Positions 3,282-38,985 of a DNA stretch of 64,000 nucleotides are shown piece after piece. The position numbers and the translations under genes are program-made. The stretch spans positions 1 through 64,000 of the forward strand of contig DATAJS010000004.1 of NCBI GenBank assembly GCA_036262035.1. Reading direction: 5' to 3'. Every line of letters begins with the position of its first letter. Position 1 is the first letter of the stretch. The notes under the pieces are model-generated. The model was not told the origin of the DNA. It did no database searches and saw only the letters and a program-made list of their open reading frames with translations. The DNA is from Burkholderiales bacterium. GTDB taxonomy: Bacteria; Pseudomonadota; Gammaproteobacteria; Burkholderiales; SG8-41.

Positions 3282-3285
3282 AGCT

Positions 3286-3382
3286 CGTCATTCCCGAACC
3301 GCGATAGCGGGAGCTATCGGGAATCCATTTTCAACACCGATTCAAAATGAAAATGGATTCCCGCCTTCGCGGGAATGACGAC
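3286..3382. repeat. GTCATTCCCG-family inverted repeat between convergent tatC and protease genes
   Basis: A long palindrome opens with CGTCATTCCCG and closes with CGGGAATGACG. Each arm also holds its own small hairpin (ATTCCCG...CGGGAATCC), so the transcript could fold as a stem with two side hairpins. It sits between convergent stops, where a bidirectional terminator would be expected. Other copies or half copies lie at 18962, 24805, 52384 and 63868. Confidence 0.88.
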
Positions 3383-17748: not shown

Positions 17749-17946
17749 ATGAAATGGAGTCATTTCCCCAAATCGCCGGTGTTCCCCGCCGGCTTCAGGT
17801 GGCCTTTCCAGAAGCGCCGGGAAGGCTACGAATCCGACGTGACCGCGATGGTCCGCGCGATGCTCGAGGACGAGAAGATCCGCGAGGACCAGCGCCTGGC
17901 GTGGGAGCGCTGGCGCAACGACCCCGTCACCAAGAGCACGTCATGA
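17749..17946 (+). CDS. Small conserved-looking protein (possibly DUF3460-related)
   Basis: A 65-residue cytoplasmic protein: MKWSHFPKSPVFPAGFRWPF, then YESDVTAMVRAMLEDEKIREDQRLAWERWRND. The second part recalls the YxSDxTxFxxxL...Q...R..W pattern of the betaproteobacterial DUF3460 family, but this is a visual resemblance. Its TGA stop overlaps the ATG of the following Bug gene (ATGA at 17943-17946), so the two are likely translationally coupled. The start at 17749 is preferred over an in-frame ATG at 17713, which lies at the end of the repeat. Confidence 0.6.
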   Translation: MKWSHFPKSPVFPAGFRWPFQKRREGYESDVTAMVRAMLEDEKIREDQRLAWERWRNDPVTKSTS

Positions 17947-18902
17947 GAATCCTGGCCGCAGCGTTCGCCGCGATGTGGGTCGCGGGCGGCGCGAGCGCCG
18001 CAGAATATCCCACCAAGCCCGTTCGTTTCGTCGTTCCGTTCGCGCCCGGCGGCAGCACCGACACGCTTGCGCGCACGCTCGGCACCAAGCTGTCCGACGG
18101 CCTCGGCCACCAGGTCGTCATCGACAATCGCGCCGGCGGCAACGGCAACATCGGCATGGAGATCGTCGCGAACGCGCCGCCCGATGGCCACACCATCGTG
18201 CTCGGCTACATCGCTAACGTGGCGATCGGTCCGAGCCTGTATTCCAAGCTGCCTTTCGATCCGGTGAAGGATTACGAAGCGGTCACGCTGCTCGCGACGT
18301 CGCCCAACGTGCTCGTCGCGCATCCGTCGGTGCAGGCGAATACGCTGAAGGAGCTGATCGCGCTCGCTAAGCGCGCACCGGGCTCGCTCAACTTCGCATC
18401 GGCCAGCGTCGGCAGCGTCGGCCATCTCACGGGCGAGATGATCAACCAGCTCGCGGGCATCAAGATGGTCCACATCGCCTACAAGGGCAGCGGCCAGGCG
18501 GTGACCGACCTCGTCGGCGGCCACATCCAGCTCATGTTCAGCGGCTTCTCCTCGGTGATGCCGCACATCAAGTCGGGCAAGCTCAAGACCATCGCGCAGA
18601 CCGGCGAGAAGCGCTCGCCCGCGCTGCCCGAGGTGCCGACGATCGCCGAATCGGGCTTCCCGAAGTTCGAAGCGACCGCGTGGTACGGCGTGCACGCGCC
18701 CGCGAAGACGCCCAGGCCCATCGTGAACCGGCTGAACAGCGAGTTCGTGAAAGCGCTCAAGGCCCAGGATGTGCGCGACCGCCTCGGCGGCCTGGGTTTC
18801 GAGATCGTCGGCTCGACGCCCGAGTACTACGCGAGCTACATCAAGTCCGAGATCAAGAAGTGGGCGAAGGTGGTCAAGGCGTCGGGCGCGAAGCCTGACT
18901 AG
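17943..18902 (+). CDS. Bug/TctC-family periplasmic solute receptor
   Basis: A 319-residue tripartite tricarboxylate-type binding protein with signal peptide MRILAAAFAAMWVAGGASA. The family signature YPTKPVRFVVPFAPGGSTD follows, then VVIDNRAGGNGNIG, the PDGHTI loop and HIAYKGSGQAVTDLVGGHIQL. These proteins bind small carboxylates or related polar compounds. Most in this group are orphan receptors without a TctAB partner, as here. It overlaps the preceding small gene by four bases, an unusual pairing for this family. Confidence 0.93.
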   Translation: MRILAAAFAAMWVAGGASAAEYPTKPVRFVVPFAPGGSTDTLARTLGTKLSDGLGHQVVIDNRAGGNGNIGMEIVANAPPDGHTIVLGYIANVAIGPSLYSKLPFDPVKDYEAVTLLATSPNVLVAHPSVQANTLKELIALAKRAPGSLNFASASVGSVGHLTGEMINQLAGIKMVHIAYKGSGQAVTDLVGGHIQLMFSGFSSVMPHIKSGKLKTIAQTGEKRSPALPEVPTIAESGFPKFEATAWYGVHAPAKTPRPIVNRLNSEFVKALKAQDVRDRLGGLGFEIVGSTPEYYASYIKSEIKKWAKVVKASGAKPD

Positions 18903-18921
18903 TCTTAAGGGCGATTTTTAA

Positions 18922-19095
18922 CGCAGAGGCGCACAGAGGCGCGCAGAGGACGAACAAACGACGTCATTCCCGCGCAGGCGGGAATCCATTTTCAACCCGT
19001 CAAAGTCAAAATGGATTCCCGATCACTTCCGCTACCGCGGGTCGGGAATGACGATTTTTACGCCGTTCCTCTGCGCGCCTCCGTGCGCCTCTGCG
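18922..19095. repeat. Nested inverted repeats between convergent genes
   Basis: The outer arms (18922-18950 and 19067-19095) iterate CGCAGAGG/CGCACAGAGG words and match at 28 of 29 positions. Inside lies a complete GTCATTCCCG-family palindrome (18962-19053), which itself has a hairpin in each arm. So one palindrome sits in the loop of another. Confidence 0.9.
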
Positions 19096-19100
19096 CCTAA

Positions 19101-20033
19101 CTACGCCTTTTTAGACGCGTGATTGCTCACCGCCTCGAGCACGAGCGACCCGTCGGCGTTCCGGATCTCGGTCCTCACCACCGCCAGGCTGCGGCCGGCG
19201 TGGATCACTTTCGAAGTCGCGGTCAGTGATTCGCCCCGGCCGGGGCTGATGTACCACGCCGAGATGTTCGATATCGCCGGATGGCGCGGCACCGCCGCCG
19301 CGGCGGTCGCCTGCGCGAGGCCCAGCAGTATCCCGCCCTGCACGTGTCCCACGCGGTTGCCGATCTGGTAGCCGATCGCGACCCGGCACGTCGCGCCCGT
19401 CGCGGTGTGCCTGGGCTCGATGCCCACGAAGCGCTCGAAGAAGGTGTGCACGCCGTCGTGCGACGACAGCGCCGCCTGCGCCGCGCGCACCACCGCGCGC
19501 TCCTTCTCTTCGAGCTCGGACATCTCCAGCGGCTGCGGGCGCACGTCACCCTGCTGCCACGGCAACGGCGCGAGCTTCACCCCTTCGGGCGGCGGCAGCA
19601 CCATGAAAGTCCCCGTCGCGTGCGCGATCGTCTCGCCACCGCTTTTCAATGCGCCACGCGTGATCGCCTGCCGCGCGCTGTCGGCGGCGAAGAAGCCTTC
19701 GAGCGTGGCTTCCATGTACAGGTCTTTTCGCGGTTCGAGCCCGGTGTACTGGATGTCGAGGTGCACCGTCGCCTGCCGCCCGCCGGGCTCGATGACGAGA
19801 CGAGGCGCGGTGGCGAGCGCGCCGTCGATCACCACACCCAGCGCAGGGGGCGCGATGACGCCTTTCGCGTCGAGGCAATGCGGTCCGACCGTCATCGCGT
19901 GCGAGATCGAGTCGGGGCCGACGTGAGGCCACGTCAGCTCGAGGAAATAGCCGGGAAAGTGGAATCCCGGCGCGCGGTTGGCGGCCAGCGCGCGCAGCAC
20001 GCGGTCCTGGATAATTCGTGGGTTCAGAGTCAT
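19101..20033 (-). CDS. Double hot-dog thioesterase-like protein
   Basis: A 310-residue cytoplasmic protein with two hot-dog-like halves. The second is clearer and has a PaaI-type core, RVGHVQGGILLGLAQATAAAA followed by SAWYISPGRGESLTATSKVIHAGRSLAVVRTEI. The first half (about 60-165) is more divergent. PaaI-type domains hydrolyse acyl-CoA thioesters. Neighbours give no specific substrate. It is convergent with the Bug gene at 17.9 kb across a nested palindrome. Catalysis is plausible but unproven; the usual acidic residue after HxxGG is not obvious. Confidence 0.75.
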   Translation of the reverse strand: MTLNPRIIQDRVLRALAANRAPGFHFPGYFLELTWPHVGPDSISHAMTVGPHCLDAKGVIAPPALGVVIDGALATAPRLVIEPGGRQATVHLDIQYTGLEPRKDLYMEATLEGFFAADSARQAITRGALKSGGETIAHATGTFMVLPPPEGVKLAPLPWQQGDVRPQPLEMSELEEKERAVVRAAQAALSSHDGVHTFFERFVGIEPRHTATGATCRVAIGYQIGNRVGHVQGGILLGLAQATAAAAVPRHPAISNISAWYISPGRGESLTATSKVIHAGRSLAVVRTEIRNADGSLVLEAVSNHASKKA

Positions 20034-26471: not shown

Positions 26472-26568
26472 TTGACCGCCAAGGACGCAAAGGACGCCAA
26501 GGAAAAGCAAAACGATTCGAATACGTTCTTGGGTTCCTTTGCGTCCTTTGCGTCCTTTGCGGTTAAAT
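26472..26568. repeat. GCAAAGGAC-word inverted repeat
   Basis: The left arm iterates CCAAGGACGCAAAGGACGCC and the right arm answers with TCCTTTGCGTCCTTTGCGTC words. It lies between divergent Bug-type genes, so any promoter for either gene must lie within or against it. Relatives at 32213 and 37351. Confidence 0.9.
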
Positions 26569-32216: not shown

Positions 32217-32300
32217 CCGCAAAGGACGCAAAGGACGCAAAGGAAACCAAGAACACTATTCGAATTGCTTTTCCTTGGCGTCCTTTGCGTCCTTGGCGGT
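32213..32300. repeat. GCAAAGGAC-word inverted repeat after acyl-CoA dehydrogenase
   Basis: The left arm begins TTAACCGCAAAGGACGC, so it contains the stop codon of the dehydrogenase gene. Three word repeats are answered by CCTTGGCGTCCTTTGCGTCC on the right. It separates the gene from the SDR gene on the same strand. Confidence 0.9.
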
Positions 32301-37350: not shown

Positions 37351-37530
37351 TAACCGCCAAGGACGCAAAGGACGCAAAGGAAAAACGAATTTGTCATTGC
37401 GAGGAGCGCGAGCGACGAAGCAATCCCGGAACGTCCGGATCGTGCGCCACGAGATCGCCGCGGCGCCCTTCGGCGCCTCGCGATGACATTTTTGCTTTCC
37501 TTTGCGTCCTTGGCGTCCTTTGCGGTTAAA
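37351..37530. repeat. Nested inverted repeats (GCAAAGGAC outer, GTCATTGCGAGG inner)
   Basis: Outer arms at 37351-37385 and 37497-37530 iterate CGCAAAGGA words. The loop holds a separate palindrome (37392-37490) that starts GTCATTGCGAGGAGCGCGAG and ends CTCGCGATGAC, with the GCGAAGCAATCC word inside. The two palindromes are of different families. The element lies between the lyase and the LeuC-type gene on one strand. Confidence 0.92.
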
Positions 37531-38818: not shown

Positions 38819-38985
38819 AACACGGAGGACACGGAGGAACACGGAGGACACGGAGAGAAACGTCATTGCGAGGAGCGCGAGCGACGAAGCAATCCCGGAG
38901 CGCCCGTTATCGTGCGTCACGCGATCGCCACGTCGCTTCGCTCCTCGCGATGACCCATTTGCTTCTCCTCCGTGTCCTCCGTGTT
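38819..38985. repeat. Nested inverted repeats (CACGGAGGA outer, GTCATTGCGAGG inner)
   Basis: Outer arms iterate CACGGAGGA (38819-38856) and TCCTCCGTG (38964-38985), matching over 21 bases. Inside is a palindrome of the GTCATTGCGAGGAGCGCGAG family (38861-38954), the same inner family as at 37392. It lies between the large- and small-subunit genes, which is unusual because such subunits are normally adjacent. Confidence 0.92.

Follow-up and report, generated by a model that had tools for sequence, protein, structure and literature searches.

CGTC-1 is a described superfamily of REPs, with which the dRS3 repeats of Neisseria have been equated, and no transposase accompanies the CGTC REPs (Di Nocera et al. 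2013, PMC3733652). The loops of the CGTC-1 REPs of Bradyrhizobium vary in length (PMC3733652), and one paragraph of the same study reports REP dimers within longer palindromes, namely GTAG-15 in Anabaena variabilis, GTAG-23 in Thermomicrobium roseum and CGTC-1 in Halothiobacillus neapolitanus (Di Nocera et al. 2013, PMC3733652). REPs are themselves inserted into, by IS1397, IS621 and ISPpu9/ISPpu10 (PMC1525189).

Here we describe, in a 64,000-nucleotide stretch of a Burkholderiales genome (the window), an intergenic palindrome that holds a second palindrome, of a separate family, at its apex. We know of no enzyme that mobilises CGTC REPs, the group to which we assign the inner element from its sequence, and of no rule by which they choose a target; a target palindrome that occurs both empty and filled, and that holds several REP families at a repeatable distance from its arms, makes REP site choice directly testable.

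The nested locus

In the outer part, two arrays of 9-10-nt units face inward across an AT-rich apex, a design that we call a frame. The nested palindrome occupies the gap between two convergent genes, whose stop codons end at 18902 and 19101; its parts and neighbours are as follows, the gene names being readings of sequence and neighbourhood.

17943 to 18902, + strand: upstream convergent gene, predicted tripartite-tricarboxylate-receptor (Bug-like), from an open reading frame, a gene call and an ortholog search; its stop is about 20 nt upstream of the outer array
18907 to 18921, + strand: outermost tail of the left outer arm (AAGGGCGATTTTTAA), a weak complement of 19096-19110 (inverted repeat 82%), partly paired in the RNA fold
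18922 to 18949, + strand: left outer arm, an array of 10-nt units (CGCAGAGG CGCACAGAGG CGCGCAGAGG) of the frame family, with a 28/29 match to the right arm
18950 to 18961, + strand: left apex linker (ACGAACAAACGA), about 12 nt, from the sequence and from linker lengths across frames
18962 to 18988, + strand: inner CGTC-1 REP unit 1, with a CGTC tag, an 8-bp stem (ATTCCCGC/GCGGGAAT), a 4-nt loop (GCAG) and a CCA tail, read against the CGTC-1 definition (PMC3733652)
18989 to 19011, + strand: dimer spacer with complementary ends (TTTT...AAAA), from the inverted repeat
19012 to 19053, - strand: candidate inner CGTC-1 REP unit 2, inverted, with a CGTC tag, an 8-bp stem (ATTCCCGA/TCGGGAAT), a 19-nt loop with a small hairpin and a CCA tail, from the sequence and the folds
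19054 to 19067, + strand: right apex linker (ATTTTTACGCCGTT), about 14 nt, from the sequence and linker statistics
19068 to 19095, - strand: right outer arm, an inverted array (CCTCTGCGCG CCTCCGTGCG CCTCTGCG), from the sequence, inverted repeats and the frame set
19101 to 20033, - strand: downstream convergent gene, predicted thioesterase-like, from an open reading frame, a gene call and orthologs; its stop lies about 6 nt past the outer array

Inverted-repeat analysis bears out the 28 of 29 matching bases that the first-pass annotation gave for the outer arms (18922-18950 and 19067-19095), and the arms extend more weakly out to 18907 and 19110 (44 nt, 82%). Both folds agree with this, at z near -12: the nested palindrome reaches -69.2 kcal/mol as DNA (z = -11.8 against shuffles) and -119.3 kcal/mol as RNA (z = -12.3), where the inner stem is enclosed by the outer stem, and neither energy was equalled by any shuffle. 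Within the inner element the tips CGTCATTCCCG (18962-18972) and CGGGAATGACG (19043-19053) are complementary at 11 of 11 positions, and the internal arms (18979-18992 and 19008-19021) at 14 of 14. The inner element had been described as filling the entire loop, which is not the case, as the linkers of about 12 and 14 nt part it from the arrays. In the window, Rfam covariance models at gathering score matched tRNA alone and left the nested palindrome unmatched, and a scan of the locus found neither an intrinsic terminator nor a sigma-70 promoter.

From its sequence, the inner part is best read as an inverted dimer of CGTC-1 REPs. Of the terminal tags that the definition allows (CGTC, or TGTC/CCTC), CGTC is present at 18962-18965 and, inverted, at 19050-19053; the 8-bp stems of both units begin with AT; and the short unpaired tails, which in CGTC-1 are for the most part CCA, lie at 18986-18988 (CCA) and 19012-19014 (TGG). 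The loop of unit 1 has the 4 nt of the CGTC-1 definition, and that of unit 2, at 19 nt, is longer and structured. CGTC-1 inverted dimers are multi-copy here and lie in many intergenic regions. A GTCATTCCCG dimer at window positions 3282-3381 spans the entire gap between two convergent stop codons (3281, 3382), and in three further stretches (L048, L051, L059) single GTCATTCCCG half-units stand in tandem rows with a 24-26-nt period beside a full dimer.

The genome has three Y1_Tnp genes, none of which is flanked by CGTC-1 dimers (0/3), with one single CGTC-1 unit lying about 1.4 kb from one of them. Each of these Y1/RAYT-type transposase genes (L191, L192, L193) has a different flanking palindrome family, GGGTCTGACCC, GGGGTCAGGTCCAC or GTAGGGTGCG, which are neither CGTC-1 dimers nor frame arms, and mobilisation by the genome's own RAYTs was rejected on this ground; among the inner elements, only the GTAGGGTGCG family is adjoined by a RAYT.

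The outer palindrome family

The arrays are built from units such as GCAGAGGAC, GCAAAGGAC, GCCAAGGAC and similar types, the window copy being of the 10-nt subtype. With up to 1 mismatch, the array motif CGCMRAGGACGCMRAGG has 562 matches in the 7.14-Mb genome against 5 for a reversed-pattern control, and the whole nested query has more than 60 BLAST matches there; the outer and inner parts are therefore both dispersed families. A literature search for the arm motif or the outer family, covering part of the journals, found no description.

Frames were detected by our own scripts, with genes called by a scripted codon-based caller, in a sample of 2.04 Mb made up of the window, 1.2 Mb of contig C10 and 0.4 Mb of contig C13, both unselected, and 19 stretches of 20 kb picked for arrays. 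A broader unit definition gave 60 inward arm pairs (frames), 0 outward pairs and 53 unpaired arms; these counts rest on pairing and orientation, as reversed arrays in the reversed-intergenic control still fit the loose unit. Frames often start just past a stop codon, in gaps where the genes converge or run in the same direction; 37 of the 60 lie between co-directional genes and 1 between divergent genes, a class that makes up 279 of the 1260 intergenic regions (p = 1.3e-5). In a first, stricter set of 50 frames the arm subtypes agree within a frame (AA 34, GG 10, mixed 4; Fisher p = 4e-7), so that a frame forms a unit rather than a chance pairing of neighbouring arrays.

Other accounts of the outer part did not hold. 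The arms are 9-10-nt tandem units lacking a GTAG tag, where a GTAG REP mobilised by a RAYT should be a single stem-loop of 20-40 bp; frame arrays flank none of the three Y1_Tnp genes (0/3), as the repeats of TIRYT genes should; and perfect arm pairing does not appear as a selected trait, since the AAAG-type arms within a frame are less alike than arms across frames (0.717 vs 0.752).

Nesting across the genome

The window holds five frames, two REP-free and three filled, the remaining four being placed by frame detection:

26478 to 26560, unstranded: second window frame, with a REP-free loop of 33 nt
32219 to 32297, unstranded: third window frame, with a REP-free loop of 29 nt
37356 to 37523, unstranded: fourth window frame, with a different CGTC-like element inside (TGTCATTGCGAGG...)
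38822 to 38982, unstranded: fifth window frame, with ACGGAGG-flavoured arms and a GTCATTGCGAGG element inside

Across the sample, 25 of the 60 frames have no known REP (loops of 19-82 nt) and 35 hold REPs (loops of 67-153 nt), which belong to at least three families: CGTC-1, a second CGTC-like family (GTCATTGCGAGG) and a GTAG-type family (GTAGGGTGCG), plus mixtures. Under uniform placement over the residual intergenic length of the 2.04 Mb, 7.7 REPs would be expected in frame loops, against the 35 found; the unselected 1.6 Mb gave 17 against 4.1 expected (p = 1e-6, or 3e-5 with divergent regions left out). Of the REPs in frame-bearing regions of the full sample, 35 are in the loop and 3 are not (p = 1e-5), and in the unselected subset 17 are and 2 are not, a difference that is not significant (p = 0.17), significance there being over all intergenic DNA only.

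No arm in the sample is split by a REP. The distance from arm to inner element is 9-16 nt on at least one side in 25 of 28 complete cases, and on both sides in 12; elements of the GTCATTGCGAGG family lie 10-14 nt from both arms in 8 of 10 and are centred almost exactly. When the linkers of filled frames are joined, the median loop is 24 nt for the GTCATTGCGAGG family and 42 nt for CGTC-1, beside a range of 19-81 nt and a median of 44 for REP-free loops. A rule that REPs sit in any palindrome was rejected, because free REPs have no further palindromic flanks save in extra frames and a few isolated cases.

Two other arrangements were seen in frames. A 43-nt loop core (approximately GCGTCGTCATGAGTTCGCGATG), probably another core type, recurs in otherwise REP-free frames (C10:877302, C10:1106460, C10:1115307 and C13:186430), and at L126 7747-8244 three CGTC-1-like dimers stand in tandem, with a period of about 103 nt, within one frame.

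Independence of the two parts and other genomes

The view of the first-pass annotation that the outer and inner parts are separate families stands, as each is found alone and together with the other rather than always as one fixed unit. Framed and free copies are intermixed in trees, with 15 label changes against 14.9 in shuffles for 78 orientable CGTC-1 dimers and 7 against 7.6 for 46 GTCATTGCGAGG elements, the trees being built on about 90 bp, so that the scatter may partly be noise and events are not datable from them. Nesting arose more than once: the trees speak against one composite clade, and the same point is made independently of them by unrelated REP families that share one kind of frame. 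An exact empty outer palindrome with the arm subtype of the nested locus (CGCAGAGGN{20,50}CCTCTGCG) was absent from this genome, where the empty frames are mostly of other arm subtypes.

Among 300 genomes of the order, 20 contain the exact empty-frame pattern, and the control gave 0. The combination of arm, linker and GTCAT has 99 matches in this genome and at most 3 in any other, and arm-plus-CGTC nesting is all but confined to this genome. Frames from relatives are mostly REP-free, with one, in G006, holding a CGTC-1-like dimer. From these three results, the outer family is more widely distributed than the nesting. In f15, f36 and f50, distant families of the order (G058, G084, G311 and others), exact empty frames are abundant, with up to 19 per genome, with almost no arm-plus-CGTC nesting.

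The first-pass annotation had proposed looking for an empty loop at the same locus in related genomes and for target-site duplications at the edges of the inner element. No empty-loop ortholog was found: the best orthologous convergent junction (G002) has neither the outer nor the inner part, and at the junction in G005 there is a short plain hairpin. The G002 junction (L076/L083) carries another nested design, in which inverted GTGAATCGT/GTAAATCGT arrays enclose a hairpin that resembles a terminator (AAAAGGCTGCGACATCGCAGCCGTTTTT), and at L075 a different short tandem array, of GTGCTGAGT units, lies directly 3' of the stop codon of the orthologous Bug-like gene. Target-site duplications were not detectable at the edges of the inner element. 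Over all CGTC-1 (family-1) copies the duplication test showed no excess (1.74 vs 1.68 in shuffled flanks, sd 0.06), the framed family-1 copies gave 2.16 vs 1.70 (sd 0.24), and the flanks of the GTCATTGCGAGG family have a weak excess of 2-3-nt matches (2.00 vs 1.55, sd 0.13).

Origin of the nesting

We propose, with a probability of roughly 0.6, that two independent non-coding palindrome families have become nested, the frame coming first and a REP dimer entering its apex later, and that this happened repeatedly and with several REP families. The inner element had been taken for an insertion into a hairpin loop; the loop position, the absence of split arms in the sample and the existence of empty frames all speak for this, and frame first and REP later, the simplest account, is most likely the order of events. 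In the likeliest mechanism, a frame on single-stranded DNA, such as the lagging strand, would extrude as a hairpin, and a REP dimer would be joined at its unpaired apex by an HUH/Y1-type or similar activity; insertions at the apex alone would spare the outer stem and persist. As RNA, the nested palindrome would form a single long stem-loop in the gap between the two genes, and this would probably curb read-through or shield 3' ends; its position and its RNA fold make such a part in holding back read-through at the gene ends plausible.

Nesting is found at dozens of sites in this genome, with several unrelated hairpins inside, which suggests that the tips of hairpins are either favoured as landing sites or the only ones tolerated. 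A bolder form of this, which we hold only tentatively, is that several unrelated REP families, of CGTC and GTAG types, spread alike with a preference for the unpaired apex of a cruciform or hairpin, a second palindrome family thus serving as their genome-wide landing pad.

The best-surviving alternative, unlikely in our judgement, invokes selection and not targeting: REPs would insert anywhere between genes, insertions into the arms would wreck a useful outer hairpin (a terminator or mRNA-end structure) and be lost, and those at the apex would remain. The linkers are partly complementary, which would leave the exact centre as the sole harmless site, and the near absence of frames from divergent promoter regions is as expected if they are transcribed at gene ends. 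However, loss from arms alone does not predict the enrichment of loops over general intergenic space in the unselected DNA (17 vs 4.1), and the useful outer stem that it needs is not a canonical terminator by our scan; the enrichment weakly favours apex-directed insertion over selective loss.

Less probable again is that homologous recombination or gene conversion, acting through the arms as shared ends, swaps different cores (CGTC-1, GTCATTGCGAGG, GTAGGGTGCG and the 43-nt core) between frames. This would account for several core types in the same kind of frame at similar offsets, for the numerous arms and for the two arms of a frame being of the same type far above chance (AA 34, GG 10, mixed 4), but the arms are just about 40 nt and diverged, and the scatter of framed cores among free copies would demand many entries into frames anyway.

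We consider it very improbable that there is no true outer palindrome and that a frame is no more than a pair of unrelated gene-end arrays brought face to face by a convergent gap. Unpaired arms are nearly as frequent as pairs (53 vs 60) and arms often begin at a stop codon, yet co-directional genes flank 37 of the 60 frames, all 60 pairs face inward and none outward, and arm types are correlated (p = 4e-7); pairing of 3'-end arrays by convergent genes alone was rejected on the co-directional frames and the correlated arm types. That outer and inner parts were copied as one fixed composite, which would suit a locus that has both where the best ortholog lacks both, is hardly credible when each part is plentiful alone, framed inner copies do not cluster and frames of this one kind house at least three REP families.

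Comparison with known systems

A genome with target palindromes both empty and filled shows that nested palindromes in bacteria can come about again and again and not just as single oddities. The first-pass annotation had thought such nesting unknown, which is wrong in part: REP dimers within longer palindromes have been reported (PMC3733652), and what is new is a host palindrome that is also empty, in this and other genomes, and that accepts several REP families at its apex.

As in the CGTC-1 REPs and the dRS3 repeats of Neisseria, unit 1 here has a CGTC tag, an 8-bp stem, a 4-nt loop and a CCA tail, in an inverted dimer with no dedicated transposase; unlike them, unit 2 has a 19-nt structured loop and the dimer lies within another palindrome. 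The palindromes of PMC3733652 likewise hold a REP or dimer within a longer unrelated palindrome, that of H. neapolitanus also being occupied by a CGTC-1 heterodimer, but there each host palindrome is described with a single REP family, REP-free targets having been found in T. roseum only, whereas here the outer palindrome is empty in this and other genomes and has several REP families at its apex. In the intergenic mosaic regions of Neisseria (PMC3733652, citing earlier work) CGTC-1 (dRS3) units are also interleaved with other repeat families between genes; those are described as interleaved clusters, in contrast to the symmetric, apex-centred nesting found here. Finally, IS1397, IS621 and ISPpu9/ISPpu10 (PMC1525189) are similar in that a mobile element picks a palindromic repeat as its target, but they are coding insertion sequences for which the REP is the target, whereas at this locus the REP dimer is probably the insert.
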